Assembly (NCBI RefSeq): GCF_018595675.2
Contig: NZ_CP092333.1
Location: forward strand, 520,001-584,000
From: Flavihumibacter fluvii
GTDB lineage: Bacteria; Bacteroidota; Bacteroidia; Chitinophagales; Chitinophagaceae
Direction of reading: 5' to 3'
DNA length: 64,000 nucleotides
A program made the translations under genes and the position numbers. How positions within the stretch are numbered: the first letter of the stretch is position 1; the number at the start of each line of letters is the position of its first letter. Positions 37,559 through 53,481 of the stretch are shown here, one piece after another. The notes beneath the pieces are model-generated. The model made no database searches. It saw only the letters and a program-made list of their open reading frames with translations, and was not told where the DNA came from.

Positions 37559-38236
37559 ATGAAAAAGATATTGTTGTTGCTGGCCAGCGTTGTGTTATAC
37601 AATGCTGCCTCAGCACAGGTAAAAGTAGGTGTTCAGGGAATTGCAAATCTCAGTAGTGCCGATCTTGATACAGAAGAAATGTTAAACCCAACCAAGAACC
37701 AGAAATTGTTTTTTAGTGGTGGTATTGTAGTGGAAGTTCCCATCAATACATCATTCGGCATTCGTTCAGGCGTTGATTTTTTATCGAAAGGTGTTGGGCT
37801 GAACAGTTCAGTTGGGGAAGTGGACGGCGAAATCAGTTCTCTGTCCTTTGAGAGCGATGTTAAATTGAATTACCTGCAGCTGCCTGTTCAGGTGGTGTAT
37901 AACATCCCCGTGAAAAGTGTACAGCTGAACGCTGGTCTTGGTGGTTATGCGGCCTATGGGGTAAGTGGCAAATTGCAACTGGAAACGACTACCACTTTCA
38001 CCGATGGTGGGAAAGGGGTTGAAGTTGAAGAGCTGGATGCATTTAAAAAGGAAGAAGATGGCGGCGCTGAATTGCAACGGTTTGATTTTGGTGTGAATGC
38101 CTCAATCGGCATCAAGGCAAGATCAGGTCTCTTCGCTAATATCAGCTACCAGCTTGGCCTCACCAATATTGCTGCAGAGCAGGATAGTAAATACAAGAAC
38201 CGCGGACTGCAATTGGCCATTGGATTTATCTTTTAA
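37559..38236 (+). CDS. Outer-membrane beta-barrel protein (PorT-like family)
   Basis: 225 residues with signal peptide (MKKILLLLASVVLYNAASAQ). The mature part starts with KVGVQGIANLSSAD and alternates amphipathic strands (GIRSGVDFLSKGVGLN, NYLQLPVQVVYNIP, LNAGLGGYAAYGVSG, ANISYQLGLTNI), ending GLQLAIGFIF with the terminal aromatic of outer-membrane proteins. Typical eight-strand Bacteroidota barrel; function unknown. It precedes the NmrA-like gene by 17 nt. Confidence 0.87.
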   Translation: MKKILLLLASVVLYNAASAQVKVGVQGIANLSSADLDTEEMLNPTKNQKLFFSGGIVVEVPINTSFGIRSGVDFLSKGVGLNSSVGEVDGEISSLSFESDVKLNYLQLPVQVVYNIPVKSVQLNAGLGGYAAYGVSGKLQLETTTTFTDGGKGVEVEELDAFKKEEDGGAELQRFDFGVNASIGIKARSGLFANISYQLGLTNIAAEQDSKYKNRGLQLAIGFIF

Positions 38237-38253
38237 TACTGAATACAACTACA

Positions 38254-39180
38254 ATGAATAAAAAGAAAACTATTTTAGTAACTGGCGCTACAGGCGCACA
38301 AGGTGGGAGCGTCGCCTGGGTATTACTCGGGCAAGATAAATTCAAGGTTCGTGTTTTGACAAGGGATACCAGCTCGCCAAAAGCCATTGAACTGGAGCGG
38401 GCCGGAGCAGAACTGGTGTATGGTGATCTTAACAAACCCGATACACTGGTCAATGCGATGCAGGATTGTTATGGGGTGTATGGTGTCACCAATTACTGGG
38501 AGCATTATGACAAAGAATTCCAGCAGGGCAGGAACCTGGTTAATGCTGTAAAAAAAACGGACATCAAGCATTTTGTTTTACATACCCTGCCCAGTTACAG
38601 CATTTTAAGTGAAGGTAAGTATCCAACACCGCATTGTGATATTAAAGCCCAACTGCAGCTGTATACGATCAGCCAAAGCATCCCGGCAACATTTTTACAG
38701 GTGGCATTTTATTATGAGAATTTTTTAAATTATTTTCCTTTGATCCGGCATGATGATGGAAGTTATCATTTTGGGTTTCCACAGGGAGACACCCGGCTGG
38801 CCATGGTGAGTGTGGAAGATGTGGGTGGCATGGTTGCTGCCATTTTTGACCATCCTAAGGAATATACAGGCAGAGTGGTTGGCGCAGTAGGGGCTGACGA
38901 AACCTGTGAAACATATGCCGCTATCCTTTCAAATGTATTGGGCAAAGCCGTCTGCTATGATTATATCCCAAGGGAACAATATGCAGGTTTTGGCTTCCCG
39001 GGTGCAGAAGAACTTGCTAACATGTTTGAAGTCCAAAGGCTGCATATCAAGGGCCGGCAACTTGACCTTATTGAAAGTTATGCGCTGAATCCTGCCATGC
39101 AAAGTTTTGTGGGATGGGTTAGTAAGCATAAATACCAATTCCTGGCTGCCATGAATAATGGAGAGCAGGTGCTGATCTGA
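38254..39180 (+). CDS. NmrA/HSCARG-like NAD(P)-binding protein
   Basis: 308 residues, atypical short-chain dehydrogenase. Rossmann motif TILVTGATGAQGGSVAW at the N-terminus, then YGDLNKPDTLVNAMQDCYGVYGVTNYWEH and HFVLHTLPSYS; the usual catalytic Tyr-Lys pair is not conserved, so it probably senses NADP(H) or reduces quinones rather than acting as a classical dehydrogenase. May share a transcript with the barrel gene upstream. Confidence 0.88.
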   Translation: MNKKKTILVTGATGAQGGSVAWVLLGQDKFKVRVLTRDTSSPKAIELERAGAELVYGDLNKPDTLVNAMQDCYGVYGVTNYWEHYDKEFQQGRNLVNAVKKTDIKHFVLHTLPSYSILSEGKYPTPHCDIKAQLQLYTISQSIPATFLQVAFYYENFLNYFPLIRHDDGSYHFGFPQGDTRLAMVSVEDVGGMVAAIFDHPKEYTGRVVGAVGADETCETYAAILSNVLGKAVCYDYIPREQYAGFGFPGAEELANMFEVQRLHIKGRQLDLIESYALNPAMQSFVGWVSKHKYQFLAAMNNGEQVLI

Positions 39181-39228
39181 AACAGTTCGTACCTCAAAAA
39201 AATTCAAATCATTGCCAAAACGACTGTC

Positions 39229-39648
39229 ATGGATTCTGCGGCCAAAGTGGTAAGGGTATCCTGCCTGGTTAATACAATGGGTTGCAACGATTGCCATTAC
39301 CCCAGACGAATGGGTCCAAAGCGCCCGGAACTTATTCCTGAGTTAAGGTTTTCGGGAGGGCGTAAAGATGCGCAAATTCCATCCATTGACACGATGGCCA
39401 TCAAAAACGGATGGAACTTATTAGGGCCAGATTTCAGGGTGGCAGTGGGGGGCTGGGGTGCGTCTTTTTCCGGCCGCGACCTCCTGCCACCCATGCCCTG
39501 GATCGTATATAAAAACCTGAACGATGACGACCTGTCTTCATTTTATCATTTCCTGAAAACAACCACTCCGGCAAATAATGTGGTTTCCGCACCTATACCT
39601 TTTGCTGATTTACCAAAACTAAAAGGGGAAAACTGCTTCCTGAAATAA
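39229..39648 (+). pseudogene. Cytochrome c remnant lacking signal peptide and internal segment
   Basis: 139 codons with one haem motif (MGCNDCHYPRRMGP) and the C-terminal pattern RDLLPPMPWIVYKNLNDDDL of small Bacteroidota c-type cytochromes. No signal peptide precedes the haem site, so the haem could not be attached by the usual periplasmic machinery. The segment between GGWGASFS and GRDLLPPMPW seems shortened by some 30-40 residues relative to what I remember of intact relatives. Most likely a decaying gene; an intact but unusual protein is the alternative. Confidence 0.55.
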
Positions 39649-39694: not shown

Positions 39695-39725
39695 CAATTC
39701 ATACACGATTTTCCTCAATTCATAC
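39695..39725 (+). promoter_or_regulatory. LytTR-type tandem site A, upstream of the kinase-kinase-LytTR operon
   Basis: Two identical copies of CAATTCATAC (39695-39704 and 39716-39725), period exactly 21 bp. LytTR domains bind pairs of about 9-bp direct repeats two helical turns apart. A GTAATTTG -7-like box follows at 39778-39785. Suggests autoregulation. Confidence 0.65.
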
Positions 39726-39795
39726 GGGAAACTCCGTTAAATCGCACACCCGGAACCTCCAAAAGTGCTGGAAAATAGTAATTTGACAAGGTGTT

Positions 39796-40854
39796 ATGAC
39801 AATACAATTACCACAATACACAGGAAAGGATTACCTGGTTCTGGCCATGGTGCTCCTGCCTTTCACTATCCTGATGAATTCCATTGTGTTTGGCACGATG
39901 TATTATTCCGGACTGCCATTATTCCTGGAAGCCACCTTAATTACAGGCCTCGCATTTGTATTGGATTTCACCTTATGTGGTTTCATTGCAGTCTTACTGA
40001 AAGAAAGATTTCCGGATGAAAATCAGGCTGGCAGGAAACTTAGTCTCATGATCATTACTTTCCTGGTGGTCTCCGGATTATTCCTGCTGCTATTGTTCAA
40101 AGGTTATGAGATCATCAATTTCCATGGTTATACTTTTAATGAGCGCGGGTTTATCTGGGCCTATGTTTTCCAGGGTATCCTGAATATTTTCCTTACGTTT
40201 TTATTTGAAGGAATCGCCCATTTCCAGAACTGGCAGGCCAATCTCAGGGAAACTGAAGAACTGCAGAAGGCTTACCAGCAGGGACAATTGCAGGGATTAA
40301 AAAGCCAGGTGAACCCGCATTTCCTGTTCAATAGCCTGAACTCACTCAGCAGCCTGATCCAGGATGACGAAGAAGAGGCGGAACTCTTCCTGGATGAAAT
40401 GACCAAAGTGTACCGGTATATGTTGCGGAATAGTGAAGACCAGTTAGTACCAGTGCAAACGGAAATCAAATTTCTGGAATCATACATCTACCTGCTCACC
40501 AAAAGATATGGCGAAGGTTTGTTGGTAACCATAGAGATTGACCCGGACGACCTGGAGAAAATGTTGCCGCCGCTTGCTTTACAGGTATTGATCGAAAGTG
40601 CCTTTACACAAAACATGACCAGCAAAGCAAGTCCTTTGCGGATCGATATATATTCAGAAAATCAGCAATTGCTTGTGAGGAATATCATTCAGCCGAAGGT
40701 AGTTAAAGATACTTTTGACGATGAACTGGGGCTGGATAACCTGGTAAAAAAATACATGTTGCTGAATCGCTCTGCTGTGGTGATCGATTGCTGTTCAACG
40801 CACCGTGTGGTAAGGCTTCCCCTGATCGCAAAAAAAGAGGAGGTGTTGGTATGA
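39796..40854 (+). CDS. LytS-like sensor histidine kinase, type 1, with degenerate ATP site
   Basis: 352 residues: four N-terminal membrane helices (about 12-150), a coiled linker, then the His_kinase domain of the LytS/YehU group. The phospho-acceptor is His175 in LKSQVNPHFLFNSLNSLSSLI. The N-box, normally LVENAxKHN, reads LIESAFTQN with Ser268 in place of the essential Asn, so ATP binding is doubtful. It may act as a partner or scaffold for the next kinase, whose start codon overlaps its stop by 4 nt. Paralogue of the protein at 47587-48648. Confidence 0.85.
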   Translation: MTIQLPQYTGKDYLVLAMVLLPFTILMNSIVFGTMYYSGLPLFLEATLITGLAFVLDFTLCGFIAVLLKERFPDENQAGRKLSLMIITFLVVSGLFLLLLFKGYEIINFHGYTFNERGFIWAYVFQGILNIFLTFLFEGIAHFQNWQANLRETEELQKAYQQGQLQGLKSQVNPHFLFNSLNSLSSLIQDDEEEAELFLDEMTKVYRYMLRNSEDQLVPVQTEIKFLESYIYLLTKRYGEGLLVTIEIDPDDLEKMLPPLALQVLIESAFTQNMTSKASPLRIDIYSENQQLLVRNIIQPKVVKDTFDDELGLDNLVKKYMLLNRSAVVIDCCSTHRVVRLPLIAKKEEVLV

Positions 40855-41936
40855 AGCCCTGGTATACCCCAACAAAGTTGCAGCGATATGCTTTTTATTC
40901 AGCAGTGCCGGTGGTCGATATCCTGATCAACTATATTTTATTTGATGACCGGTTATTCCGGGAGATCAAAATCTGGATTATTTCTGTTCCACTTGTTTTT
41001 TTCCTTGGATGGGTGACCTGGAGGACCCAGACCTTATCGGGAAATTTCATCAGGTTCAAATTGCCGCAGCTAAAGCAGACATTTCGGCGAATTAGTATCC
41101 TGTCAGTTTGTTCAATTCCTGTGATGGCATTTTCTTTGTACCTGGTCTTTTACCTGTATGCCAATTTCCGGATCCTGGAGTACCGTTTCAATAATGAAGA
41201 TATTTTACTGGGAGTTGGGTTTTTGTCCGGCATCAGTATAATTTTTGAAACCTTGTTTGAAGCGGATTTCATATTGAATAAATACAAGGAAAGTGTACAG
41301 GAAAGAAAGCAAATGGAACACTTATCCATGCTCACAGAATTTGAAATCCTGAAGAACCAGGTGAACCCGCATTTTTTGTTCAATTGTTTTAATACACTGT
41401 CATCCCTGATCGGCGAGGATAAGCGACGGGCAGAGCAGTTTCTGGATGAACTCAGCAAAGTGTACCGCTACCTATTGCGCAATAATGAAGACGGACTAAG
41501 CACGCTGGAGAATGAGATCAAATTCATCCAGTCTTATTTCCTGTTGCTCAAGACACGCTACGGGGAATCGGTCCAGATGAATACCGATATTGATAAAAAA
41601 TACAGTGGCTACCTGTTGCCTTCCCTCAGCCTGCAACTGCTGGTCGAGAATGCTGTAAAGCACAATATATTATCCAAGACGAATCCACTACTGATCGATA
41701 TCCTGACAACAGCAGGAAACCAGCTGGTGGTAAATAACAATATGCAAAGAAGGGCAGTAAAGGCGCCCGGCAATAAGATCGGATTGGAGAATATCAGGGC
41801 TAAATACCAATTGCTAAACAGGGAAGGTTTCCAGGTGATGGAAGATGAACATAATTATACAGTAGTCCTGCCACTCATCTGGAATAACCAGGAAGGACCC
41901 AGGTCGATTTTCTTAAACGAATTAAAAACCATTTGA
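40851..41936 (+). CDS. LytS-like sensor histidine kinase, type 2
   Basis: 361 residues; ATG overlaps the preceding stop (ATGA). Four N-terminal membrane helices (about 15-145), then the kinase core with His174 in LKNQVNPHFLFNCFNTLSSLI, an intact N-box LLVENAVKHN and a G-box-like KIGLENIRAKYQLL. It should phosphorylate the LytTR regulator encoded 1 nt downstream. No extracytoplasmic sensor domain; the membrane helices themselves or the adjacent type-1 protein probably sense the signal. Paralogue of 46544-47590. Confidence 0.88.
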   Translation: MKPWYTPTKLQRYAFYSAVPVVDILINYILFDDRLFREIKIWIISVPLVFFLGWVTWRTQTLSGNFIRFKLPQLKQTFRRISILSVCSIPVMAFSLYLVFYLYANFRILEYRFNNEDILLGVGFLSGISIIFETLFEADFILNKYKESVQERKQMEHLSMLTEFEILKNQVNPHFLFNCFNTLSSLIGEDKRRAEQFLDELSKVYRYLLRNNEDGLSTLENEIKFIQSYFLLLKTRYGESVQMNTDIDKKYSGYLLPSLSLQLLVENAVKHNILSKTNPLLIDILTTAGNQLVVNNNMQRRAVKAPGNKIGLENIRAKYQLLNREGFQVMEDEHNYTVVLPLIWNNQEGPRSIFLNELKTI

Positions 41937-41937
41937 T

Positions 41938-42702
41938 ATGCGCATATTAATTGTAGAAGACGAAGAACTTGCCGTTAAAAAACTGCAGAAAACATTGCAT
42001 GCTGTTTATCCAGCCGCTGAGGTGGTAGGCATCACAGAAAGCATCAAGACAACAGTTGAGTGGTTATTCAGCCATCCGCAACCTGACCTTATTTTGATGG
42101 ATATTGAACTCTGCGATGGACAAAGTTTCGAGATATTCAACCTCTTTGATGTGAAGAGCCCGGTTATATTCACTACATCCTATGATGAGTTTGCCCTGAA
42201 AGCTTTTAAGGTGAATAGTGTGGATTACCTGCTGAAACCTGTACAAAAGGAAGAGTTGCAAGCGGCCATTGATAAGTACCAGCGGTTGACTGCAGAGCAT
42301 AAGCCGGGTATTAATCTCGATAGTTTGGTGAAGGAACTGCAACTCAAACTGCAGCCAAAAGATTTCCGCAAGCGCTTCCTCGTAAAGCAGGCGCAGAAAC
42401 TGGTATCGGTCGATGTTGAAGACATTGCCTATTTTTATAGTGATGGCCGGCTGAATTTCTTTAAGACTGAGGACAATAAAAAGTTTGTTGTAGACTATAC
42501 CATGGATGAACTTGAAGACATGCTGGACCCGGCCCGGTTTTTCAGGATCAGCCGCTCTTTTTATGTTTCCGTAAACTGCATTGATAAGATCGACGATTAT
42601 TTTGGCAACCGCCTCATCCTTGCTTTGCGACCTTCAGTGGACAAGGAAGCCCTGGTAAGCAGGGAAAAGGTCACCGATTTCAAAAAATGGATGGGTAAGT
42701 AA
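41938..42702 (+). CDS. LytTR-family response regulator
   Basis: 254 residues: receiver domain (1-120) with VEDEE, phospho-acceptor Asp55 in LILMDIEL, TTSYDEFALKAF and the Lys in YLLKPV; LytTR DNA-binding domain (about 145-250) with FLVKQAQKLVSVDVEDIAYFY and FFRISRSFYVSVNCID. Translationally coupled to the type-2 kinase. It is the only LytTR protein in the window, so it is the candidate for all four 21-bp tandem sites. Confidence 0.92.
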   Translation: MRILIVEDEELAVKKLQKTLHAVYPAAEVVGITESIKTTVEWLFSHPQPDLILMDIELCDGQSFEIFNLFDVKSPVIFTTSYDEFALKAFKVNSVDYLLKPVQKEELQAAIDKYQRLTAEHKPGINLDSLVKELQLKLQPKDFRKRFLVKQAQKLVSVDVEDIAYFYSDGRLNFFKTEDNKKFVVDYTMDELEDMLDPARFFRISRSFYVSVNCIDKIDDYFGNRLILALRPSVDKEALVSREKVTDFKKWMGK

Positions 42703-42880
42703 TCAGGAGACCGGCAACTTGATGATCATCTGTGCATGGACCTTATGAAGGTTGATGGATAATGTTCCTTTGTTGTAGGCTATGCGGCGATCCATTTCCG
42801 GACTGTGGAAGAGGCTGTTGAATTGCTGCTGGTCCGGTTGCCCTTTATCTGCACTTACCCCAATTTTACAGTTTTAGCCA
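42703..42880 (-). pseudogene. Remnant of a histidine-kinase C-terminus
   Basis: An open minus-strand stretch of about 57 codons ending at 42703, directly abutting the LytTR gene's stop. It reads CKIGVSADKGQPDQQQFN ... RRIAYNKGTLSINLHKV ... MIIKLPVS, resembling the last strand-helix-strand of a kinase ATPase domain and, loosely, the C-terminus of the sensor at 48645 (CRINMSLEKA ... LLLEIPLS). An in-frame stop lies just upstream. From 42880 to 43089 I see nothing assignable. Confidence 0.4.
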
Positions 42881-43089
42881 CCTGCCTTTAACTAGCGGTG
42901 AATGAACTCTTTAAACAATTGGCTGTGGTTACATGGTTGAACGAATATTTCAGGGTCACTTGGGCGCCGGCATGATGCAGGAGAAAACAACTGAGGGAAA
43001 AATAATCAGGCACTTCAATAGCAGTTTTTGTATCTGCCAAAATCAGTTAACCTGCCGGTATTGGCGCCCCGTTGATACATTGCTTTTCG

Positions 43090-43120
43090 CAATTCATACA
43101 TTGTTTTCCCCAATTCATTA
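43090..43120 (+). promoter_or_regulatory. LytTR-type tandem site B
   Basis: CAATTCATAC (43090-43099) and CAATTCATTA (43111-43120), period 21 bp. A GACCTTTG -7-like box follows at 43193-43200, pointing to the small ORF at 43238. Confidence 0.6.
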
Positions 43121-43237
43121 CGGGTACTGCATTTCATCCTGCAAAAACAACAGCTCATGCATGGTGTCATTTGCCCTGAAAGCAGATCTGCTGACCTTTG
43201 TGTTGTAATTATTTTCGTCATCATTCAACACAAAACA

Positions 43238-43399
43238 ATGGAAAAGTATAGATTCTTTTTTCAGGTATTGAGCGGCATAAGCCTCTTGCCAATTCTGGCT
43301 ATTATGGAGCTGGAACATCATCCGGAAAAAAATCCGGCAGCGCAGGGCCACAAACAAGAGGTCGCTGTGCAGGTAGCCATACAGGGCAAGTTAAATTAA
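43238..43399 (+). CDS. Small membrane or exported protein (53 aa)
   Basis: MEKYRFFFQVLSGISLLPIL begins a 53-residue ORF with one hydrophobic stretch (about 5-23) followed by a polar tail with HHPEKNPAAQGHKQE. No family recognised. Support comes from position: 31 nt or so after the predicted transcription start and downstream of LytTR site B. A second tiny ORF follows. Could also be a chance frame. Confidence 0.5.
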   Translation: MEKYRFFFQVLSGISLLPILAIMELEHHPEKNPAAQGHKQEVAVQVAIQGKLN

Positions 43400-43431
43400 A
43401 CCACATTCCCCAAGGTTTAAAAAAGCGCAAT

Positions 43432-43539
43432 ATGAACTTCAACGTTTCATATCCCCGACAACTGATGGTTACTCTTTGGGTCTGCATTGCAGCATTCGAC
43501 CTGGTAATGATCAGCTTTGTTCTACTGCTGGTTATATGA
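43432..43539 (+). CDS. Tiny single-helix membrane protein (35 aa)
   Basis: MNFNVSYPRQLMVTLWVCIA starts a 35-residue ORF whose C-terminal two thirds form one strongly hydrophobic helix (MVTLWVCIAAFDLVMISFVL). It ends in the 5' arm of a perfect hairpin, as expected for the last gene of a short transcript. No homologue recognised. Confidence 0.45.
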   Translation: MNFNVSYPRQLMVTLWVCIAAFDLVMISFVLLLVI

Positions 43540-43565
43540 CTGCAGGATGATCCCTGCAGTCATAT
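43534..43565. terminator. Bidirectional hairpin between convergent transcripts
   Basis: ATATGACTGCAGG and CCTGCAGTCATAT form a 13-bp perfect stem with a 6-nt loop, between the tiny ORF (+) and the DUF1080 gene (-). T tracts are weak on both sides, so attenuation rather than strong termination is possible. Confidence 0.6.
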
Positions 43566-43573
43566 CCTGCCTT

Positions 43574-44215
43574 TTAATTTGGTAAAGGCCTTACCATGAT
43601 GTTCCTGAAATACACAACGCTTTTGGGGTCATGGCCCTGAAAGGCAAATGTACCACTGGAGATCAGTCTTTTGGGATGGTTATCCAAGCGCAAAGGATTC
43701 TCTGGTTCAGTATAATCCACCACAACCGTATCATTGATCTTGATGATCACATGTTTGCCTTCTACTTTAATATATTCTGTGTACCATACATTGTCTTTTA
43801 CATATACTTCTTTCACATCTACAATGTCATACAGACTTCCGGTTCGTTTATTATCGCCATGGGAATTATTCACCTGCACTTCATAGCCTTTTTCAGGAAA
43901 GCCTGCTTCCTGGAATTCTGTATGGAAATAAATGCCGGAATTGGATCCGGGTGTGGTCATTACCTCAGCTTTAAACTCGAAGTTTTTGAACTGGTGGTTG
44001 CTGACAGGACCATCATAAAACAAATGCGCAACCGGACCAGCTACTTTTATACTGCCATTTTCTATTGAAAAGGTAGATGCATTATTTCCTACTTTCCAGC
44101 CATTCAGGGATTTTCCGTCAAAGAGCGCGATCCATTCTTTAGGCTTGGGCCTGAAAGCTGCGGTTATTGCGAAAATTGCTAGGAGCACTAGGGCCAGGGA
44201 ACCATTTTTTTTCAT
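43574..44215 (-). CDS. Exported DUF1080 (3-keto-disaccharide hydrolase-like) protein
   Basis: 213 residues with an N-terminal hydrophobic signal (LALVLLAIFAITAAF). A concanavalin-like DUF1080 domain: WIALFDGKSLNGWKVG, FEFKAEVMTTPGSNSGIYFH, PEKGYEVQVNN, YTEYIKVEGKHVIIKIND. The domain occurs in sugar-active secreted proteins of Bacteroidota and Planctomycetes, where some hydrolyse 3-keto-glycosides. No 3-dehydrogenase is adjacent. Confidence 0.87.
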   Translation of the reverse strand: MKKNGSLALVLLAIFAITAAFRPKPKEWIALFDGKSLNGWKVGNNASTFSIENGSIKVAGPVAHLFYDGPVSNHQFKNFEFKAEVMTTPGSNSGIYFHTEFQEAGFPEKGYEVQVNNSHGDNKRTGSLYDIVDVKEVYVKDNVWYTEYIKVEGKHVIIKINDTVVVDYTEPENPLRLDNHPKRLISSGTFAFQGHDPKSVVYFRNIMVRPLPN

Positions 44216-44294
44216 GTCTTGATCAGTTAAATGTCATTTATTGATTTAATGTACTAATTGTTTTTGAACCGTGGACCGGATTTTTTTTCAACAA

Positions 44295-44323
44295 GTGGTT
44301 ACATCCCGGAACGGGGTGGTTAC
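44295..44323 (+). repeat. GTGGTTAC direct repeat with 21-bp period upstream of a PepSY-like gene
   Basis: GTGGTTAC at 44295-44302 and again at 44316-44323, with another GTTAC at 44329. The 21-bp step equals that of the LytTR sites, but the half-site sequence differs. Possibly an operator for the gene at 44366; which protein binds is unknown. Confidence 0.45.
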
Positions 44324-44365
44324 TCATTGTTACAAGAGATTTAAAACATACTAAAACAAAGAGAT

Positions 44366-44647
44366 ATGAAAAAGTTAGTAATTGTATTTATCCTGGCAGC
44401 AAGCCTTTGTTCATGCGACAAATTCGTAAATGGCCCGCATGGCCTGGATGATTCTTCCCAAAACACACCATCAAATATTCCTTCAGCTGTGAAAAATGCA
44501 TTTAATGCGAAGTATCCAACAGCCAGCCGTATGGAATGGGAGCCGGAAGATGGTAATACCTGGAAAGTGAAATTCTATCTGGACGGTGTTCGCTGGGAAG
44601 CATTTTTTAATGCAGACGGCAGCTTTATCTCCGCCAATATTAAATAA
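44366..44647 (+). CDS. PepSY-like small lipoprotein
   Basis: 93 residues. Lipoprotein signal with lipobox SLCSC (Cys near 17), then a low-complexity linker and one PepSY-like (beta-lactamase-inhibitor-like) domain: IPSAVKNAFNAKYPTASRME, GNTWKVKFYLDG and NADGSFISANIK. Such domains are periplasmic and often act as inhibitors or ligands of other proteins. Paralogous to the protein at 53553; the two flank the signalling island. Confidence 0.85.
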   Translation: MKKLVIVFILAASLCSCDKFVNGPHGLDDSSQNTPSNIPSAVKNAFNAKYPTASRMEWEPEDGNTWKVKFYLDGVRWEAFFNADGSFISANIK

Positions 44648-44700
44648 AAAGACAGCTAAAGGGTACAACCATGCAGGATTGTATCCTTTAGCTGTCTTTA
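44648..44700. terminator. Strong bidirectional terminator
   Basis: A 21-bp stem (44648-44668 with 44679-44699, one G-U pair) around a 10-nt loop, flanked by A and T runs on both sides. It serves the PepSY-like gene (+) and the convergent gene ending at 44712 (-). Confidence 0.9.
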
Positions 44701-44711
44701 TTATCTGGGTT

Positions 44712-45557
44712 TTATTTGATTTCGTTCAACCAGGATTCCACATAGGCCCTGGCTGGCTCAACTACTTCCTTGCCCGCCCGGAAAGCCATTTTCCAGCGGT
44801 TACTTTTGCTTTCATAAGCACGGTTCACAAAGTAGTTCTTCCCGTTTTTTGAAGTCAGTTCAGCAGAGAAGTCAATATCCCTGGTTTCGGCTAAAAATTG
44901 CTGCAACCGCTGTTTTACAAAAAGCATGTGGTTGGTTGGATATTCCGCTTCCCATGTATCTATGGCACGCTGGTAATTCTCCTTATTTGATTTCACCATG
45001 TCCGGGTATCCTTTTGCATAGCCGGCAAACTGTTTATTGTTTGGGTCTTCGGCCTCTTTCAGTTGCTTTTTGGCATCCACCAGCACTTTCTCAAAAATGG
45101 GTTTTGTATTCGCATCTGCTTTTTTGATCGTTTCTTCCATTTCGGCAATGGATTTTTTGTACATCGCAATGGTTTCTTTCCGCATATCTTCCGGGGACTG
45201 TACCACCTGTTCCGTTGGTTTATTGTCCAGTTTCAGGCTGGCATATTCTTTCTTGAATGCCTCCGATGCCGTATGTTTTTTGATGTATTCCAACAGGTCT
45301 TTTGTGATGGCTGAACGATTACCGATGGCAATGTTTTTGGCGTTTTTCAGGCCGTATGCATCAACATACCCACCAAGGATACTTTCTGTAATCTTTTTAT
45401 CTGCTGATTGTTTTTCTATTCCTAATGTCGTAAACAGATCGCCAACGATGGTGGCGGCGGTAAATGAAAATAGAAAAACGCTGATGGCGGCCAGGATAAA
45501 GGCTACAATGCCCAGCCTCAGGTGAATTCTAAATGATTGAATGGATTCCTGTTTCAT
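44712..45557 (-). CDS. Membrane-anchored protein of unknown function
   Basis: 281 residues: one N-terminal membrane helix (about 12-40, LGIVAFILAAISVFLFSFTAATIVG), then a long helical, charged periplasmic part (SPEDMRKETIAMYKKSIAEM and following coiled-coil-like heptads). No catalytic motif recognised. It starts 25 nt after the haemerythrin-like gene and is probably in the same transcript, controlled by LytTR site D. Confidence 0.82.
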   Translation of the reverse strand: MKQESIQSFRIHLRLGIVAFILAAISVFLFSFTAATIVGDLFTTLGIEKQSADKKITESILGGYVDAYGLKNAKNIAIGNRSAITKDLLEYIKKHTASEAFKKEYASLKLDNKPTEQVVQSPEDMRKETIAMYKKSIAEMEETIKKADANTKPIFEKVLVDAKKQLKEAEDPNNKQFAGYAKGYPDMVKSNKENYQRAIDTWEAEYPTNHMLFVKQRLQQFLAETRDIDFSAELTSKNGKNYFVNRAYESKSNRWKMAFRAGKEVVEPARAYVESWLNEIK

Positions 45558-45582
45558 AATATAAGGTTTATTGTTTGGTTTG

Positions 45583-46263
45583 TTAAGCCATTTCTGGCTG
45601 TTCTGTTAATTCTTCCCTGATTACCTTCCAGCGCTGTGGTATTAATTCCTGCATGGCTGTTAACAAAAGATCCTGGTAGATGAATTCCGGGGCATTGTGC
45701 CGGACGTTTTTCAGCCAGGTGATGATTTCTGAATTATTCAGTCCACGCATCATCCATGTATTGAATTTTTTAGCACTGGTGGGTGGAATACTGGCAACTA
45801 TACGGGCAGTTATGCCATGCAGTTCTGCATCTGTATAATGCTGCCATAATATTTTATTGATGATGTCTTCTTCTTCGGCCATGTGTTCCAGGTTGAAGAC
45901 CATGAAATCGACAAAGGCCGCTGTTATTGATGCACCGATCGTTTGTTTGTCCGTTGTGGTAACTGCGTGCAATAGCGCTGTGATGAGCCCCCTTAAACGG
46001 TTGCCAAGAATTGCATCCTCCTGATGGTCCGCTGTAAACGCATCAATAATGGAAGGCTCGTATCGCTGAAGGGCTCCAAACAGGAAATTATCTTCGGTGG
46101 CTGCATGTTTTTCAAATAGCTCAATAGTGCTTTCCAGCTGTGAAAGAGTTGCCGCTGTTGCTTCAATATCGAAGAAGTCTGTTTGTTGCAGGCTGGTGGC
46201 AGTTTCGTACAGGAGTACCCTTAGTCCCTTGTGTACCTGGTTGAAAATATTGTACCGTTCCAT
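45583..46263 (-). CDS. Haemerythrin-like (HHE) domain protein
   Basis: 226 residues. A four-helix HHE domain with iron ligands placed as expected: HKGLR (His11), EKHAATEDNF (HxxxE), DHQED, and LEHMAEEEDII (HxxxE). Binds a di-iron centre and, in relatives, O2 or NO, or takes part in repair of Fe-S centres. The C-terminal 80 residues are helical without a known domain. The start at 46263 (MERYNIF) is preferred over a TTG-initiated frame at 46326 that overlaps the small lipoprotein ORF. Confidence 0.82.
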   Translation of the reverse strand: MERYNIFNQVHKGLRVLLYETATSLQQTDFFDIEATAATLSQLESTIELFEKHAATEDNFLFGALQRYEPSIIDAFTADHQEDAILGNRLRGLITALLHAVTTTDKQTIGASITAAFVDFMVFNLEHMAEEEDIINKILWQHYTDAELHGITARIVASIPPTSAKKFNTWMMRGLNNSEIITWLKNVRHNAPEFIYQDLLLTAMQELIPQRWKVIREELTEQPEMA

Positions 46264-46303
46264 GGCTTGATTTTTATTTGGTAAATGAATGGATTGACTG
46301 TGT

Positions 46304-46417
46304 TTATAAGGAAAGCAATCGCTCATATGTACCGGTTTCCCTGCTATTGTTTTTTCCCGTTTTACACGAGCTGAAAGTGACTCCGGTTGATACGAACAGG
46401 ATGATGAGTAATTTCAT
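46304..46417 (-). CDS. Tiny lipoprotein (37 aa)
   Basis: MKLLIILFVSTGVTFSSCKT starts a 37-residue ORF with a textbook lipoprotein signal (lipobox TFSSC, Cys18) and a short polar mature peptide of about 20 residues, similar in design to entericidins. It sits 40 nt upstream of the haemerythrin-like gene, downstream of LytTR site D and a CATCTTTG -7-like box (46463-46456). No family recognised. Confidence 0.6.
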   Translation of the reverse strand: MKLLIILFVSTGVTFSSCKTGKNNSRETGTYERLLSL

Positions 46418-46495
46418 TTGAAGCGGTTTCGTGGTTATGTGATTTGATTGCTGGACAAAGATGTATTTCCTGAACGCACAATTAAAGGTGCAGAT

Positions 46496-46526
46496 GGACG
46501 AACTGTTGTTTCTGTGGGATGAATTG
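46496..46526 (-). promoter_or_regulatory. LytTR-type tandem site D
   Basis: Minus strand CAATTCATCC (46526-46517) and CAGTTCGTCC (46505-46496), period 21 bp. ACAGTTCGT satisfies the published LytTR half-site [TA][AC][CA]GTTN[AG][TG] in full. It precedes the tiny lipoprotein/haemerythrin-like/membrane-protein operon. Confidence 0.65.
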
Positions 46527-46543
46527 CAGGTTTTGTATTTCTC

Positions 46544-47590
46544 CTAGCGGGTAGTATTTTTCCAGCGCAGTGGGAGGACAACAGTAAAGTTCTTTTCGTC
46601 ATCTAATACCTGGAATCCCGGGGTCCTCAACAAGTCAAACTTTGCCCTTATATTGTTGAGCCCTACTTTTGTGCCCTGCGCTTTTATGGTGCGGGGTTGC
46701 AGATTGTTACTCACTACTAATTTATTGCCGGCAGTGGTGAATATATCTACGATCAATGGATTTGATTTGGAATGGGCATTGTGTTTTACGGCATTTTCTA
46801 CCAATAGCTGGAGCGATAGCGAGGGTAGTAAATAGTGATAATACTGCTTATCGATCTCAATGTTCAATTGCACCGAGTCACTATGCCTCGTACGTAATAA
46901 CTGGTAATAGGAATCGATGAATTTGATCTCACTCTCCAGCGTGCTTAGTCCGTCTTCATTATTTTTCAATAAATACCGGTACACTTTGCTGAGTTCATCC
47001 AGGAACTGTTCGGCTTTTTCTTTATCAACTGAGATCAGGGAAGATAACGTATTGAAGCAATTGAATAAAAAATGTGGGTTTACCTGGTTCTTCAGGGTAT
47101 CGAATTCCTGCTGGATGGATAGTTCCTGCAGGAGTTCTTTTTCTGCAACACCTTCCTTGAATTTGTTCAGGATATAATCTGCTTCATACAATGTTTCAAA
47201 GATTAAGTTAACGGAAAGTCCCAGCAGCAGGCCTTTCATGAGGTCCCATTGCTGCAGGTTATAACCAAGGATATGGAAAAAGTCATAAGTCAAAAAAATA
47301 AGGAGGATGCTGGGTGACATGATCAGGAAAATCACCATAGCTTTCCAGCCAATCCTTAACCGGCTCTGGTTTAGTTCCGGGAATTTATTTTCGATGAAAT
47401 TGTCATAACAGGTATGTGAATACCAGGATAAGGTGCCAATGACAAAAATCAGCGGAAAGGAGATCAGCCAGACCCTGATGTCTGTCCAGAATCTCTCTTT
47501 GTATAATATCAGGTTAGCAGCTACAGCTACCAGTGGCATGGAAAAGAGAAATGAATACCATTCCAGGCGGTGTGGTTTGAAGAATTTCAT
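46544..47590 (-). CDS. LytS-like sensor histidine kinase, type 2 (second pair)
   Basis: 348 residues: about four membrane helices, then the kinase core with the phospho-acceptor in LKNQVNPHFLFNCFNTLSSLI (His173), an intact N-box LLVENAVKHN and KVGLNNIRAKFDLL. Closely similar in plan and sequence to 40851-41936. Last gene of a three-gene operon; its ATG overlaps the preceding stop (ATGA). No response regulator follows, so it probably feeds the LytTR regulator at 41938. Confidence 0.88.
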   Translation of the reverse strand: MKFFKPHRLEWYSFLFSMPLVAVAANLILYKERFWTDIRVWLISFPLIFVIGTLSWYSHTCYDNFIENKFPELNQSRLRIGWKAMVIFLIMSPSILLIFLTYDFFHILGYNLQQWDLMKGLLLGLSVNLIFETLYEADYILNKFKEGVAEKELLQELSIQQEFDTLKNQVNPHFLFNCFNTLSSLISVDKEKAEQFLDELSKVYRYLLKNNEDGLSTLESEIKFIDSYYQLLRTRHSDSVQLNIEIDKQYYHYLLPSLSLQLLVENAVKHNAHSKSNPLIVDIFTTAGNKLVVSNNLQPRTIKAQGTKVGLNNIRAKFDLLRTPGFQVLDDEKNFTVVLPLRWKNTTR

Positions 47591-48648
47591 AGCCTGGATT
47601 CCATTTTTTTAAGTAATAATGGCAAACGGATGATCCTTACTTCCCCGGATTCTTCGATAAAGGCCTTACCCGGTTCCAGTAATTGGTATTTATTGATCAG
47701 GTTGTCCAGCCCTTTTTCTATATCCAGGTCATCTCTAATCACTTTGGGCTGAAGCGTATTGGAGATGGCGAGCATGTTTTCGCCTTCCAGGTATATTTTA
47801 ATTACCAGTGGCTTGTTTTTGTCGACACTGTTTAAGGTAAATGCATTTTCAACTATGGTCTGCAGGGTAAGGTGTGGCAGGTAGCCTGCTTTTGCAGCTT
47901 CCGGTACCGTAACCATTAATTGCAAACCTTCCCCAAACCTGGCTTTCAGCAGTGCTGCATAGGAAGCCAGAAAATGTAGTTCGCTGGACAATGTTACCAG
48001 GTCTTCATGATCATTTCGAAGCATGTAACGGTACACCATACTCATCTCATCCAGGAATTCCTCTGCTTTTTCTTCGTCTTCACTGATGAGGCTGGATAAG
48101 GAATTGAGGCTATTGAACAGGAAATGCGGATTCACCTGGCTTTTCAGTCCCTGCAATCGGCTGTGCTGGTAAGCTTTTTTCAGTTCTTCGGTTTCTTTCC
48201 TGTTCTGCCGCCACTTATCATATTGGTCGATGCCTTCATGCAACAAGGTGATAAATACATTGGTGATGCCCATGCTGATATAGGCCCAGGCATAGGTTTC
48301 GTTGTTGAATTCAATGCTGTACCGTCGAAGGTTCGAGTACAGGTTAAAGACCAACAGGAGGTAAAGTCCGGAGAGAATAAGAAAGGAAAGGATCATGATA
48401 GTCAGGCGTACAGGTATCTGGTCGTCGTCGCGGAAACGGTGTTTCATCAGTACAGCGATACCGCCACATAATGTATAGTAAATGGTAAAGGAACATACAC
48501 TGAGGATGGTGGCAATGAAAAAGTTTGATAGCGTTGCAAAATAAATTGAACCCAGGATAATCGTGTTGATCATGATGGTAAACGGCAGGATGATCAACAA
48601 TAGAATTGTGTAATCCTGGCTGTTATATCTGGGTAATTGTAAGGTCAT
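47587..48648 (-). CDS. LytS-like sensor histidine kinase, type 1 (second pair)
   Basis: 353 residues. The N-terminus MTLQLPRYNSQDYTILLLII aligns directly with MTIQLPQYTGKDYLVLAMVL of the protein at 39796, marking them as paralogues. H-box LKSQVNPHFLFNSLNSLSSLI (His175); N-box IVENAFTLN keeps the Asn but lacks the usual KH; GLDNLINKYQLL replaces a clear G-box. It overlaps both neighbours by 4 nt. Confidence 0.87.
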   Translation of the reverse strand: MTLQLPRYNSQDYTILLLIILPFTIMINTIILGSIYFATLSNFFIATILSVCSFTIYYTLCGGIAVLMKHRFRDDDQIPVRLTIMILSFLILSGLYLLLVFNLYSNLRRYSIEFNNETYAWAYISMGITNVFITLLHEGIDQYDKWRQNRKETEELKKAYQHSRLQGLKSQVNPHFLFNSLNSLSSLISEDEEKAEEFLDEMSMVYRYMLRNDHEDLVTLSSELHFLASYAALLKARFGEGLQLMVTVPEAAKAGYLPHLTLQTIVENAFTLNSVDKNKPLVIKIYLEGENMLAISNTLQPKVIRDDLDIEKGLDNLINKYQLLEPGKAFIEESGEVRIIRLPLLLKKMESRL

Positions 48649-51600
48649 ACGTTGAAATCTTGGCTAAGCGGTATTTCCAGCAGTAACGCTGAACCTTTCT
48701 CCAGGGCCTGTGTCTGGATGCGGGCATTTGCTGCGGCCAGGCTTTTGGCGATGGATTTGCGTTTCAATTGCTGGTCCAGTTGCTGCAGTGTGGATTTCTC
48801 CAGATTGAATTCCATGGTAAAGAGCAGCGTGGCCTTCTCCAGCGACATATTGATACGGCAGTATTCCGGTTTAGAATTGATCAGGGCCGTCATGGATTCC
48901 TTGAATAAATGCAGGATCTCGTAACGGTATTTCATGTTCAGTTCCAGGTTTTGTACGCGCCTGTCTACCCACATCTCTATATTGGTTGCATTACGGTTAT
49001 TAAGCCCTTCAATGAATTCCTGCATCCTTTCGAGGGTCTTGCGCATGTTGTCATTTTCGGGCCGTATACTCCAGAGCATATCATCCATGGCCACCATCAT
49101 ATGCTGGCTTTTACTGTGGATCTGCTCAATGAATTCTTTAGATTTTTCGGGTTCTTTCTCTGCTTTGATCCGGGCCATCTCACTGAGTATATTGATATCA
49201 CTCAACGCCATATTCACTTCTTCCTGCAGGTTAACGGCAATGTCTGTGCGCATTTTTTGCAGGGCCTCTTTCCGTTTAATGCGTTCATTGTCGAGCCAGA
49301 AAAAGAGGCTGCCAATAAGCAAGGCTACCAGGGAATAGAACCACCAGGTTTTCCAGAAAGGCGGATGAATAATGATTTGCAGGCTGGTGATATCATGGAA
49401 GATTTTTTTCTCATCCATGCAGGCCGTTTTGAAGGTGTACTCACCTGGCGGGAGGAAATTGAAGGATACTTCGTTCAATGGCCCTGCTGGCGTCCAGCCC
49501 CGGTCGAGCCCTTCCATTTTATATTGGATCGTATAGGTATTCTGGTAAGTGAGCGTTGAGAGCTGGATTCGGAAAGAATGTTCAAAATATTTCAGGTCCA
49601 GTTTTGATGGCATTGTTACCGAATCAACGGATAGTTCCTGGTTGAATAATGAGAAACCGGTAATATATACCTTAGGTGGAATATAGTCGTTTACCGTAAC
49701 GATTGCAGGATCGAAGACGATGAAATCATGGTTGGTGCCAAAGAGGATCCGGCCATCCTTTAAAGTGGCACTGCTGGCTACATTGAATGTATTGGTCGGA
49801 ATACCATCCAGGCTGTTATAACTGCTGAGCTTATTTTTTTTAGGGTGGAAACTATAAATGCCGGTGGTGCCGGTCATCCAGATATATCCGTATTTATCTT
49901 TTACGAGGTTGGTCAGGTCAGTAGAAGCAAGTCCGTCATTTTTGGTGAGGTAAGCGAATTTGCCGGTATGCAGGTTCAATACATTCAGGCCATCTCCTGA
50001 GATTACCATGGTGGAATCATCATACTGGATAATATCTGCAGCACCATTCATGCGAAGGACCTGTCCTTTGGGCCCCTTGTCAGAATAATGTGATAAAATA
50101 CTACCAGTGGTTGCATTTAGCCGGAATACCCCGTTCCTGTCAGTGCATATCCAAACAGAATTATCGGCGGATATATATATCCTGCTGATCACGGCTTCGA
50201 ATTTTTGCACCAGCCTGAAACTGTCGGAACTTGCTGTCCATTTAACAAGCAGCCCCCGTTGGGTACCCAACCACATATCACCGTTCATATCCTCTGCTAC
50301 CTGGCGGATGGTGCTGTTGGCTATTGCATCCGGTAATAACCTGCGGGGTTTTCCGGCGGCTGGATAGATCTTCAGTACCCCCGCTTGCAGGCCCTGCCAG
50401 ATGTCGCCATTCTGCCGCTGGGTAAGGCACCAGACTGATATATCCCTTGTCTCGCGGGGATTGGCGAATCCTGATGGTATGGGATTGAACAAACTATCGT
50501 AGGCGAATATGTTATTACCCCAGGTACTGACCAGGATTTCACCATCTTGGGTTTGGAGAAAATCTGTTACATCGGGCGTGTAACTGGTATCCCGCCCAGG
50601 ATATTTATTCTGCACCGCTGTGAATTTCTGGGCAGCGGGATTGAACCGCAGCAAGCCTTTATTGGTCGCGATCCAGAGATTGTTTTCCCGATCTTCAAAT
50701 AACAGGTTAACATTATCATACAGCATATTGTATTCGCCCGATATATTAGCCTGCATGGGTTGCACGGTCTTTTTTTTTACATCGGCCCGGGCAAAAAGGT
50801 TATTGCCCGAAAACCAGATCGATCCGTCTTTCATTTCTGTTACCCCATAGAAGTCAAAATACATGTTTTTCAGGGCGCGTAAAACCTTGTCCTGCCATTC
50901 AGTCTTTTCCCTGGTATTGATGGCATAGCTGTATACCAGCAGGCTGCCCGTATTCCAGGATGTTATCCAGAAACAATTTGTTTTATCGAGATATGCATTG
51001 ACGACCATGCGTAGTTCACCAAACTCGCTGATCACCGGATCATTCTCAGTATTATGCCCGCGATAGGAGGAAAGCTTGCTTACCGGGTTATATTTAAACA
51101 GCCCTTCATTGGTACCGACCCAGTAATTTCGGTTATGGTCTTGCCAGGTATACAATAATTTCCACCCGTCGGGTAATTTGAAAGGATTGGATTCACTGGT
51201 GAATTCCCGGCGCTTTTCATCGTAAGTGATGTATTCGCCACCATGAAAAATAAGCAGGATATTACCATCCCGATCTGGGTGAAGCGTGAGAATGGACCTG
51301 CCTTTTTCAGCTTCTACGGGCCTGATGGGGATTGGTGTAAAGACCAATGAATTGACATCCAGGTAGCCCACGGTATTCTTGCTGGTAGATACCCAAAGCC
51401 TGTTTTTTTTATCCAGTGCCATGCTGCTGATCGCCGCATCAGGAATTGAAGCAGGGTCATTCTGTTTATGGGAAAAATTCAGGAAACGCAGGCCGTCATA
51501 CCGCTGTAGTGAATTCCGTGAAGCGATCCATAGGAATCCTTTTTCATCCTGCTGAACGGAAATGATATTGGCATCCTGCAAGCCATCCTTTAATCCCAGG

Positions 51601-51683
51601 TAGGAAAACAGGTATCGCTGTTGCTGCGCATAGGAAGTACAGGTACAATAGAGCAAAAGGATGAATTGAAGCCAGTATCGCAA
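48645..51683 (-). CDS. Reg_prop/Y_Y_Y sensor with a degenerate (pseudo) histidine-kinase core
   Basis: 1012 residues: signal peptide, about 730 residues of reg_prop propeller repeats (GLKDGLQDANIISVQQDEKG, FLWIASRNSLQRYDG, LWIATNKGLLRFNP, MWLGTQRGLLVKW), a Y_Y_Y domain (EHSFRIQLSTLTYQNTYTIQ), one membrane helix (about 775-795) and a HisKA_3-like cytoplasmic part. In place of the LHDE of this kinase class it reads IAVNLQEEV, with Gln820 where the phospho-acceptor His should be. The ATPase region KESMTALINSKPEY (from 928) lacks the N-box Asn, and no glycine box is seen. So it likely senses a periplasmic ligand and signals through the two kinases it is co-transcribed with. TTG start: an in-frame stop lies just upstream, and a TAATTTTG -7 box is at 51708-51701. 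Confidence 0.85.
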   Translation of the reverse strand: MRYWLQFILLLYCTCTSYAQQQRYLFSYLGLKDGLQDANIISVQQDEKGFLWIASRNSLQRYDGLRFLNFSHKQNDPASIPDAAISSMALDKKNRLWVSTSKNTVGYLDVNSLVFTPIPIRPVEAEKGRSILTLHPDRDGNILLIFHGGEYITYDEKRREFTSESNPFKLPDGWKLLYTWQDHNRNYWVGTNEGLFKYNPVSKLSSYRGHNTENDPVISEFGELRMVVNAYLDKTNCFWITSWNTGSLLVYSYAINTREKTEWQDKVLRALKNMYFDFYGVTEMKDGSIWFSGNNLFARADVKKKTVQPMQANISGEYNMLYDNVNLLFEDRENNLWIATNKGLLRFNPAAQKFTAVQNKYPGRDTSYTPDVTDFLQTQDGEILVSTWGNNIFAYDSLFNPIPSGFANPRETRDISVWCLTQRQNGDIWQGLQAGVLKIYPAAGKPRRLLPDAIANSTIRQVAEDMNGDMWLGTQRGLLVKWTASSDSFRLVQKFEAVISRIYISADNSVWICTDRNGVFRLNATTGSILSHYSDKGPKGQVLRMNGAADIIQYDDSTMVISGDGLNVLNLHTGKFAYLTKNDGLASTDLTNLVKDKYGYIWMTGTTGIYSFHPKKNKLSSYNSLDGIPTNTFNVASSATLKDGRILFGTNHDFIVFDPAIVTVNDYIPPKVYITGFSLFNQELSVDSVTMPSKLDLKYFEHSFRIQLSTLTYQNTYTIQYKMEGLDRGWTPAGPLNEVSFNFLPPGEYTFKTACMDEKKIFHDITSLQIIIHPPFWKTWWFYSLVALLIGSLFFWLDNERIKRKEALQKMRTDIAVNLQEEVNMALSDINILSEMARIKAEKEPEKSKEFIEQIHSKSQHMMVAMDDMLWSIRPENDNMRKTLERMQEFIEGLNNRNATNIEMWVDRRVQNLELNMKYRYEILHLFKESMTALINSKPEYCRINMSLEKATLLFTMEFNLEKSTLQQLDQQLKRKSIAKSLAAANARIQTQALEKGSALLLEIPLSQDFNV

Positions 51684-51753
51684 ATGATCTGTTTAAGGGT
51701 CAAAATTACTGAACCACCCCCATTTTGCCCGCTTTGCCATATAAGGCTTATAA

Positions 51754-51784
51754 CAGTTCATACACCGTTTTCCTCAATTCATTC
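51754..51784. promoter_or_regulatory. LytTR-type tandem site C
   Basis: CAGTTCATAC (51754-51763) and CAATTCATTC (51775-51784), period 21 bp; ACAGTTCAT fully fits the LytTR half-site consensus. It lies 46 bp upstream of the -7 box of the pseudo-kinase operon, but the repeats read toward the plus strand, opposite to that operon, unlike sites A, B and D. Confidence 0.6.
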
Positions 51785-52017: not shown

Positions 52018-53343
52018 CTACTGGTTGGTTTGTTTCGTGAATTCCACGCGCCTGTTTTGCGCTTTCCCTTCTTTGGTGGAATTGTCTGCCAGTGGCTCGC
52101 TTTCGCCTTTGCCACCTGTTGCCACGCGGTTTGCAGGTATGCCATATTCATTGGCCAATGCATCTTTCACTGCTGCAGCCCTTTTTTGAGATAAGGTGAG
52201 GTTGGCCGCATCATTGCCATCACTGTCTGTATGCCCGGTGATGGTGATGTTTATGGTGCCGTTTTCTTTCAGCACGGCGGCAATCTCTTTTAACACCCCA
52301 TAAGATTCCGGTTTAATCGTAGCTGTATTCACATCGAAAAGGATGGCCGTAGTGCTGAATTTACCTTCTTCGATCAGTTTTTGCCTGGTGTCTGGAATGC
52401 CAGTGGCTACTTTCAGGTTGCTGATGAAAAATGCGGCTTCATTGTCTTTATACCCGGAGCCGCTCACTTTATAAAATAACTGGTTGTTGATGTAATTTGT
52501 AGCCAGCGCTTTCGGTAGGTCATATACTTTTTCACTGTTGATCCAGACACGTAAACGGGAACCCTGGACCTGAAGGGCAATATGGGCGATTTTGTTATAC
52601 GATCTTTCGAAATCGGCCAGTTTCTGGTCAGCCCCTTTAAAAAAACCGGCTTTATCGAGGTTGGTCTTCACATTACTATAACTGGCACCATTAGTGGCTG
52701 GGCGGATCAATATTTCTGCGGATTGGTATTTGTATGTTGCCTCAAGCAAACTGTTATCAGTCGTGGGTAGGTCACTGGTGGATAGGAAACCAAAAGTAAA
52801 GAGGGGAAAGGTATACCCGGTATTTTTTAATTGCGGGATAAGGTCAAATTCGAGGGTAAAGTTTTGGGGGAATGGTTTATTATTGGCCGACAGGTAGTTC
52901 ACATTCTGGAAGAGTTTCAGCCACTTGCCGGGAAATGATTCGAGGCTAACCACTTCTCCCTTTCCGTTGCTGTTCCAGTCCAGTGCTAATTCTCCAACAG
53001 CATCCCGGGAAAAGTCTTCCGTATAAATGAGTTCGGCGCCCGGGATAAAATCAAAGTGGGAGTATTCTTTTAGTGTTGACTCTTTTTGAGCGGGTGCCGG
53101 GTTGCTGGCAGGGGCACCATTTGTAGCAGCCGGACCGCTTCCGGTATTTTTCCCTTCCAGTTCGTCTAGGGTTTGGTCGATAGCCTTATCTATTTTCTGG
53201 TCTGCACGCTGGTTGGTTTTTTTAATGATTCTGTCTTTGACCCTGGTGGCAAATGCCGGCTGGGACTTTGTTAGATAAGGGAAAGCCAGCACGAAACACA
53301 TGAAGCAAAATATTTTGCAGAATGGGAACAATTTGCTGAGCAT
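52018..53343 (-). CDS. OmpA-family outer-membrane/peptidoglycan-associated protein
   Basis: 441 residues: signal peptide (about 1-27, ending TKSQ), a coiled Lys/Asp-rich stretch, a Pro/Ala linker (about 75-95), a concanavalin-like beta domain (about 105-310; FTLEFDLIPQLKNTGYTFPL and IAHIALQVQGSRLRVWINSE) and a C-terminal OmpA domain (about 325-440) with ITGHTDSDGNDAANLTLSQK, RAAAVKDAL and NRRVEF. The OmpA domain binds peptidoglycan. The ATG at 53343 is two codons after a TTG. Confidence 0.88.
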   Translation of the reverse strand: MLSKLFPFCKIFCFMCFVLAFPYLTKSQPAFATRVKDRIIKKTNQRADQKIDKAIDQTLDELEGKNTGSGPAATNGAPASNPAPAQKESTLKEYSHFDFIPGAELIYTEDFSRDAVGELALDWNSNGKGEVVSLESFPGKWLKLFQNVNYLSANNKPFPQNFTLEFDLIPQLKNTGYTFPLFTFGFLSTSDLPTTDNSLLEATYKYQSAEILIRPATNGASYSNVKTNLDKAGFFKGADQKLADFERSYNKIAHIALQVQGSRLRVWINSEKVYDLPKALATNYINNQLFYKVSGSGYKDNEAAFFISNLKVATGIPDTRQKLIEEGKFSTTAILFDVNTATIKPESYGVLKEIAAVLKENGTINITITGHTDSDGNDAANLTLSQKRAAAVKDALANEYGIPANRVATGGKGESEPLADNSTKEGKAQNRRVEFTKQTNQ

Positions 53344-53481
53344 AAACAATAAGGTTAATGGTAATGGTCTTTGTTAATTCAGCAACAAGATATTTCGGGA
53401 TGCCCTTACGCACAATAAAGGGTAGCATGAACTGGGGTTAATAAAGGATCAGTTGGTTAAATCAGGATTTTTTCCTGGCAG

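Follow-up and report, generated by a model that had tools for sequence, protein, structure and literature searches.

Promoter-phased direct repeats with a 21-bp period associated with a LytTR response regulator in a sensor kinase cluster of Flavihumibacter fluvii

A stretch of 64,000 nucleotides from Flavihumibacter fluvii (NCBI RefSeq assembly GCF_018595675.2, contig NZ_CP092333.1, positions 520,001 to 584,000 of the forward strand; hereafter the window, with positions counted from its first letter) harbours two operons for LytS-type sensor kinases, one gene for a LytTR response regulator and, between genes, pairs of short direct repeats, which raises the question of which protein recognises the repeats and which promoters are controlled through them. 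The candidate is the regulator encoded at 41938..42702 (+), a proposed DNA-binding protein in which both PF00072 (E = 1.1e-13) and PF04397 (E = 1.3e-20) score above the Pfam cut-off. A first-pass annotation of the window had called it the sole LytTR regulator there, and indeed only one of the 24 LytTR genes of the genome is found in the window. Judged from sequence comparisons the pairs are, with a probability of roughly 0.88, dimer sites of this regulator, which would form an autoregulated LytS/LytTR regulon and activate the targets named below.

Four pairs with an exact 21-base-pair (bp) period had been reported in the window and all were recovered, at 39695/39716 (+), 43090/43111 (+), 46526/46505 (-) and 51754/51775 (+). 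Their decamers resemble CAATTCATAC and were described by the pattern CARTTCRT-N13-CARTTCRT, where the octamer spacing of 13 equals a 21-bp period and an 11-base spacer between decamers. A scan of the whole genome (5,001,887 bases), suggested as a check in the first-pass annotation, gave five exact matches, four of them the window sites, and none for a reversed control pattern. All five lie between open reading frames (ORFs), site 4 (51754) overlapping one doubtful ORF of 120 amino acids (aa) on the + strand and no other. When up to two mismatches were allowed the genome gave 113 pair matches against 25 for the reversed control, and this pattern was dropped as a member list for being too loose. 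Mismatches quickly admit chance matches, since two (L006 and L010) of the six places outside the cluster with no or one mismatch are within ORFs, the other four being intergenic. Single half-sites were likewise rejected as a signal; CARTTCATAC with at most one mismatch occurs 16 times in the window where 9.67 are expected, a count equalled or exceeded in seven of 100 shuffles.

In a published account LytTR binding sites are described as two repeats of 9–11 bases with 11–13 bases in between and as having no common consensus (PMC4847170). The 11-base spacer fits this description. When the consensus quoted earlier for the window, [TA][AC][CA]GTTN[AG][TG], was applied to the eight half-sites, two were found to fit fully, three to differ at one base and three at two. 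The assertion that all remaining half-sites were one base off is thus right for 39694, 39715 and 51774 and wrong for 43089, 43110 and 46527(-), which are two bases off.

To address which regulator the pairs belong to, they were counted around genes of different LytTR classes, allowing octamer spacings of 12 or 13 and at most one mismatch. Orthologs of the 41938 regulator (E <= 1e-95 in 195 family genomes) were found in 43 genomes, its own included, and those listed from the others are 64–81% identical to it. In 52 ortholog loci totalling 964,549 bases, 12 of them taken from a separate search and 40 from this one, there are 107 pairs, distributed over 45 of the loci. In eight loci of paralogs (47–68% identical; 145,558 bases) one pair was found, ~8 kb from the regulator gene of L097, the 68% identical copy, and the remaining 23 LytTR genes of the F. 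fluvii genome had none in 75,138 bases of surrounding sequence (~1.5 kb per side, ~3.3 kb each). This footprint of 107 against 1 against 0 pairs supports a LytTR regulon under the 41938 protein.

Together with the window stretch and its four pairs the ortholog set amounts to 53 loci and 987,549 bases, which yielded 33 exact pairs at spacing 13, nine at spacing 12 and one at spacing 19, and none at the 19 remaining spacings tried between 4 and 25. Inverted arrangements of half-sites (at most one mismatch, ortholog loci) were tried and discarded, no spacing being prominent and none giving more than five matches. With one mismatch allowed, 99 of 111 pairs are intergenic relative to the called genes of the 53 loci, and site 4 is counted among the remaining 12 because of the doubtful ORF. 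The nearest downstream gene of the 99 pairs encodes most often the kinase HK1 (40 in the same and two in the opposite direction) or a propeller protein (16 and seven), followed by the regulator (eight), a haemerythrin (four), a 281-aa protein (four, as the nearest same-direction gene) and smaller groups (18); cytochrome genes are also among those preceded by pairs. Ahead of kinase genes the site centre is located 61–93 bases from the start in 29 of 43 cases.

The pattern was then applied to held-out loci, 80 loci minus 30 duplicates of training loci leaving 50 (490,124 bases), each with at most 10% of sampled 60-mers in common with the training loci. At spacing 13, pairs were present in 39 of the 50 loci, 29 of them exact and 37 with one mismatch; at nine spacings besides 12 and 13 there were no exact and 0–2 one-mismatch pairs each. 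A variant with a 20-bp period (spacing 12) was seen in both sets, with the nine exact pairs already mentioned in the 53 loci and 12 exact plus seven one-mismatch pairs in the 50 held-out ones. Emticicia belongs to another family, and in two of its loci (L263 and L276) a regulator ortholog with 74% identity has a site ~100 bases upstream of its own gene, indicating a possible transfer between families.

When analysing the sequences downstream of the pairs a fixed relation to the promoter appeared. The -7 box of Bacteroidota is given as TAnnTTTG in a Flavobacterium study (PMC9723704). Among 92 site-gene combinations in the same direction, 42 of 47 matches to TAN(N)TTTG start at phased distances from the second half-site, either 33–35 bases (17) or 53–55 bases (25), two positions that are about two helical turns apart. 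Of 11 pairs in the genome of F. fluvii, not counting site 4, nine are followed by a phased box with no more than one mismatch, against a background of 7.8% (binomial tail 5e-9). A composite pattern of a pair and a box at 34 gave six matches in the genome and none when reversed, five of the six also being matches of the profile described next.

The profile, R1, was trained on 78 sites from relatives with the window excluded; its E-values are rough because the calibration was shortened. At E < 0.01 in the unfiltered window it returned 39693, 51752, 46495(-), 43072, 43128, 37449 and 53425(-), the next best having E = 0.47, and at E <= 0.05 it matched in 39 of the 50 held-out loci. Genome-wide the cluster sites rank first, second and fourth, and nine matches have E < 0.06; five belong to the cluster, including two that overlap within the site 2 array, and the other four are at genome positions 1881910, 744970, 2339049 and 2689412. 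When 29 genomes, the own one included, were scanned, 17 had a match at E <= 0.1; several of the genomes scanned had supplied training sites.

The cluster thus holds at least seven pairs ahead of at least six transcription units, the latter number following from the additional profile matches at 43128, 37449 and 53425. Site 1 (39695..39723, +), upstream of the kinase/regulator operon, is exact and the top profile match of the genome (29.4 bits), with a -7 box TAATTTG at 39779-39785 (+), 55 bases downstream. Site 2 (43069..43158, +) consists of five half-sites starting at 43069, 43090, 43111, 43130 and 43151, of which those at 43069, 43130 and 43151 are degenerate, and a box GACCTTTG lies 34 bases past the last one (43193-43200, +; composite match). 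Site 3 (46498..46526, -; exact), upstream of tiny lipoprotein and haemerythrin genes, scores 18.4 bits unfiltered, appears in the filtered genome scan as a truncated match (12.3 bits, E = 1.2) and has a box CATCTTTG 34 bases downstream (46463-46456, -; composite match). Site 4 (51754..51782, +; exact, 27.6 bits) is flanked by the end of the OmpA gene on one side and the start of the propeller-kinase operon on the other, with a box TAATTTTG at 51708-51701 (-), 45 bases away. Of the additional pairs, the one at 37450..37478 (+), with a degenerate first half (13.6 bits, E = 0.0056 in the window and 0.48 in the genome), is upstream of an outer-membrane-type gene starting at 37559 and has a perfect box TACTTTTG 34 bases downstream (37513-37520, +; composite match). 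The other, at 53427..53455 (-) (13.0 bits, E = 0.0088 in the window and 0.69 in the genome), is upstream of the OmpA-domain gene starting at 53349(-), and a box TATCTTG with one mismatch follows after 34 bases. The first-pass annotation had the sites preceding both kinase operons and forming a code for the whole cluster. As to the former, site 4 is oriented away from its kinase operon, which starts at 51683(-); the latter stands for about 37.5 to 53.5 kb, but the pairs had been undercounted and some presumptive members of the regulon are outside the window.

Under the proposed mechanism kinase signalling would phosphorylate the 41938 regulator, which in this form would bind a pair of CAATTCAT half-sites that share a helical face and activate promoters with a -7 box 33–35 or 53–55 bases downstream. 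Putative targets in the cluster are both kinase operons (the regulator's own and the second), the outer-membrane-type protein, the OmpA protein, the lipoprotein/haemerythrin genes and the tiny-ORF unit. Distant candidates are a cytochrome c gene at 744.9 kb, where the site (L007, genome 744931-745001, -) has a phased box with one mismatch, a 246-aa protein at 1881.1 kb and a divergent pair at 2339.1 kb. A redox or envelope cue as the input is a doubtful guess, made because the targets include cytochrome, haemerythrin and outer-membrane genes.

Several observations weigh against this reading. Pairs with at most one mismatch are lacking in seven of the 52 ortholog loci and, at spacing 13, in 11 of the 50 held-out loci; moreover, owing to relatedness among the ortholog loci and to boxes shared by tandem pairs, the counts are not independent events. 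A phased box is lacking at two of the 11 pairs of the own genome (43090 and 1881912), and one composite match (2775763) is inside an ORF. The phase windows were derived from relatives, but the own-genome sequences had been inspected before the test. Two genomes of the same genus (G002 and G007) possess the ortholog but show no R1 match near it. At the 246-aa protein conservation is weak, a pair with at most two mismatches being present in one of six homolog loci, and the weak distant sites may be chance matches. Opposite-direction sites, site 4 included, have no common distance to the -7 box, the 16 TAN(N)TTTG matches among 54 such combinations being scattered. With site 4 inverted and its box distance of 45 bases falling between the two usual ones, some promoters might be repressed through the same sites and the same regulator. 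This is considered unlikely, as the usual two-phase position upstream of the -7 box fits activation and in relatives the pair ahead of a propeller gene points the same way as the gene in 16 of 23 cases.

Less likely still is that the sites are used by another of the LytTR proteins, or by several with overlapping specificity. The number of LytTR genes in the genome speaks for it, as do a stand-alone 116-aa LytTR gene (742154) situated 2.5 kb from the distant site at 744973 and two weak R1 matches in each of two same-genus genomes without a close ortholog (G001 and G003), the last point also counting against the 41938 protein itself. The distribution of pairs over the three regulator classes is nevertheless what would not be expected if other LytTR proteins read them. 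The motif has no feature unique to LytTR sites and the site 2 array has five units, which would suit an unrelated DNA-binding protein or repeat debris of a mobile element. Against this, the spacing is limited to 20–21 bp, the sites are phased with promoters in a YpdB-like architecture and they are conserved at homologous promoters in many loci, and debris would not hold the distance to the kinase start described above, which makes such an origin very improbable. The preferred reading remains that of dimer sites of the 41938 regulator.

The first operon starts with HK1 (39796..40854, +), a LytS-type membrane kinase (Pfam His_kinase) with an NPHFLFN box and, in alignments, an N-box without K-H-N, followed by HK2 (40851..41936, +), a LytS-type kinase by Pfam with a complete N-box in the alignment. 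The second (46544..51683, -) has three genes and no regulator gene among them, encoding a propeller protein (Reg_prop/Y_Y_Y; 48645-51683, -), an HK1-type (47587-48648, -) and an HK2-type kinase (46544-47590, -), so the window has two kinase pairs for one regulator gene, with one N-box-deficient member in each pair. In 31 loci with paired kinases (30 relatives and the window with its two pairs) both partners of every pair have the histidine box and only one has the N-box N-x-x-K-H-N. Among 21 single-kinase loci the N-box is present in 20 and masked in one; a further locus, L086, was left unclassified. An altered N-box is by itself no proof of lost ATP use. The propeller protein has the phospho-acceptor H and no N-box in 21 of 21 sequences from paired loci, and in single-kinase loci T at this position in 21 of 21 and an N-box in 19; in that of the window Q replaces the H and the N-box is lost. 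One fragment was excluded from these counts. Pfam HATPase_c was found in the only single-locus propeller protein scanned and was absent from the two paired-locus ones.

A single FastTree phylogeny of the regulator proteins places the single-kinase loci in one clade nested within the paired loci (support 0.99), and the loss of HK1 therefore looks derived. The window is paired and groups with other genera in this tree, whereas each of the eight same-genus ortholog loci that were classified has a single kinase, suggesting transfer or lineage-specific loss. Tentatively, and with the odds somewhat against it, HK1 and HK2 might form an obligate heterodimer in which HK1 supplies the histidine and the sensing without using ATP and HK2 is the sole working kinase, the degenerate propeller protein being a third input, the second kinase pair feeding the same regulator and this one LytTR regulator driving all components via the phased 21-bp sites.

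Of the remaining genes, those at 37559..39648 (+) encode an outer-membrane beta-barrel-like protein (NCBIfam match below cut-off), an NmrA-like protein and a small protein with a CxxCH motif. Downstream of site 2 a 53-aa ORF (43238..43399, +) is followed by one of 35 aa (43432-43539, +), both putatively coding. Behind site 3 are a 37-aa lipoprotein-like ORF (46304-46417, -) and a haemerythrin-domain protein (Pfam; 45583-46326, -). The 281-aa protein (44712..45557, -) has no Pfam or NCBIfam match at E <= 0.001, and its homologs are found beside the kinase operon in relatives. The OmpA-domain protein (Pfam) is encoded at 52018..53349 (-). Two small secreted-looking proteins, at 44366-44647 (93 aa) and 53553-53861 (+) (102 aa), are similar to each other; the 53427 pair is located ~100 bases ahead of the latter but oriented the other way, and between 43161 and the former there is no R1 match with E < 0.01.

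LytTR switches are known as a kind, but the present circuit with its partly degenerate sensor kinases seems undescribed; among the papers listed by a literature search, judged by titles and abstract openings, none described a Bacteroidota LytTR site or the present motif or cluster, although the system may be in print elsewhere. With a model that combines the site and its promoter phasing and that was tried on the held-out loci, targets of the 41938 regulator can be predicted in its relatives, and the same footprinting could be applied to other LytTR families, this one genome having 24 LytTR genes.

Among known systems YpdA/YpdB (PyrS/PyrR) is alike in combining a LytS-type kinase with a LytTR regulator and in its direct repeat with an 11-base spacer. 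YpdB of Escherichia coli binds GGCATTTCAT-N11-GGCATTTCAT with a 21-bp period (PMC4847170), one base in the core octamer differing from the CAATTCAT of the cluster. The 41938 regulator is 32% identical to YpdB, and its best NCBIfam models, LytR and BtsR, are far below their cut-offs. Unlike YpdB, the regulator of the cluster would serve many promoters, that of its own operon among them, and is accompanied by two kinase pairs and a propeller protein; no pyruvate link was seen among the few targets examined. The half-site and the promoter type of AgrA differ from those of the cluster. Similar are its domain and site arrangement, since AgrA of Staphylococcus aureus binds through its LytTR domain as a dimer to direct repeats upstream of promoters, centred near -60 (PMC4227749). 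In Streptococcus gallolyticus the operons regulated by BlpR/BlpS are preceded by a 30-bp LytTR motif that is confined to this locus and two others (PMC8545106), which resembles the situation in the cluster; that system controls bacteriocins by quorum sensing, and no peptide gene was identified in the cluster. For the kinase pairs the nearest precedent found is FasB/FasC/FasA of group A Streptococcus, with two kinase-like proteins and a ComE-like regulator, where FasC is proposed to be a histidine-supplying pseudokinase and two-hybrid data support a heterodimer (PMC12675982). The cluster differs in belonging to another phylum, in adding a separate propeller protein and in having one partner without K-H-N in every pair examined. 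This half-degenerate pattern makes heterodimeric signalling testable beyond streptococci and, if the heterodimer reading is true, the cluster would represent a counterpart of FasBCA in Bacteroidota, with a propeller pseudokinase as an additional component.

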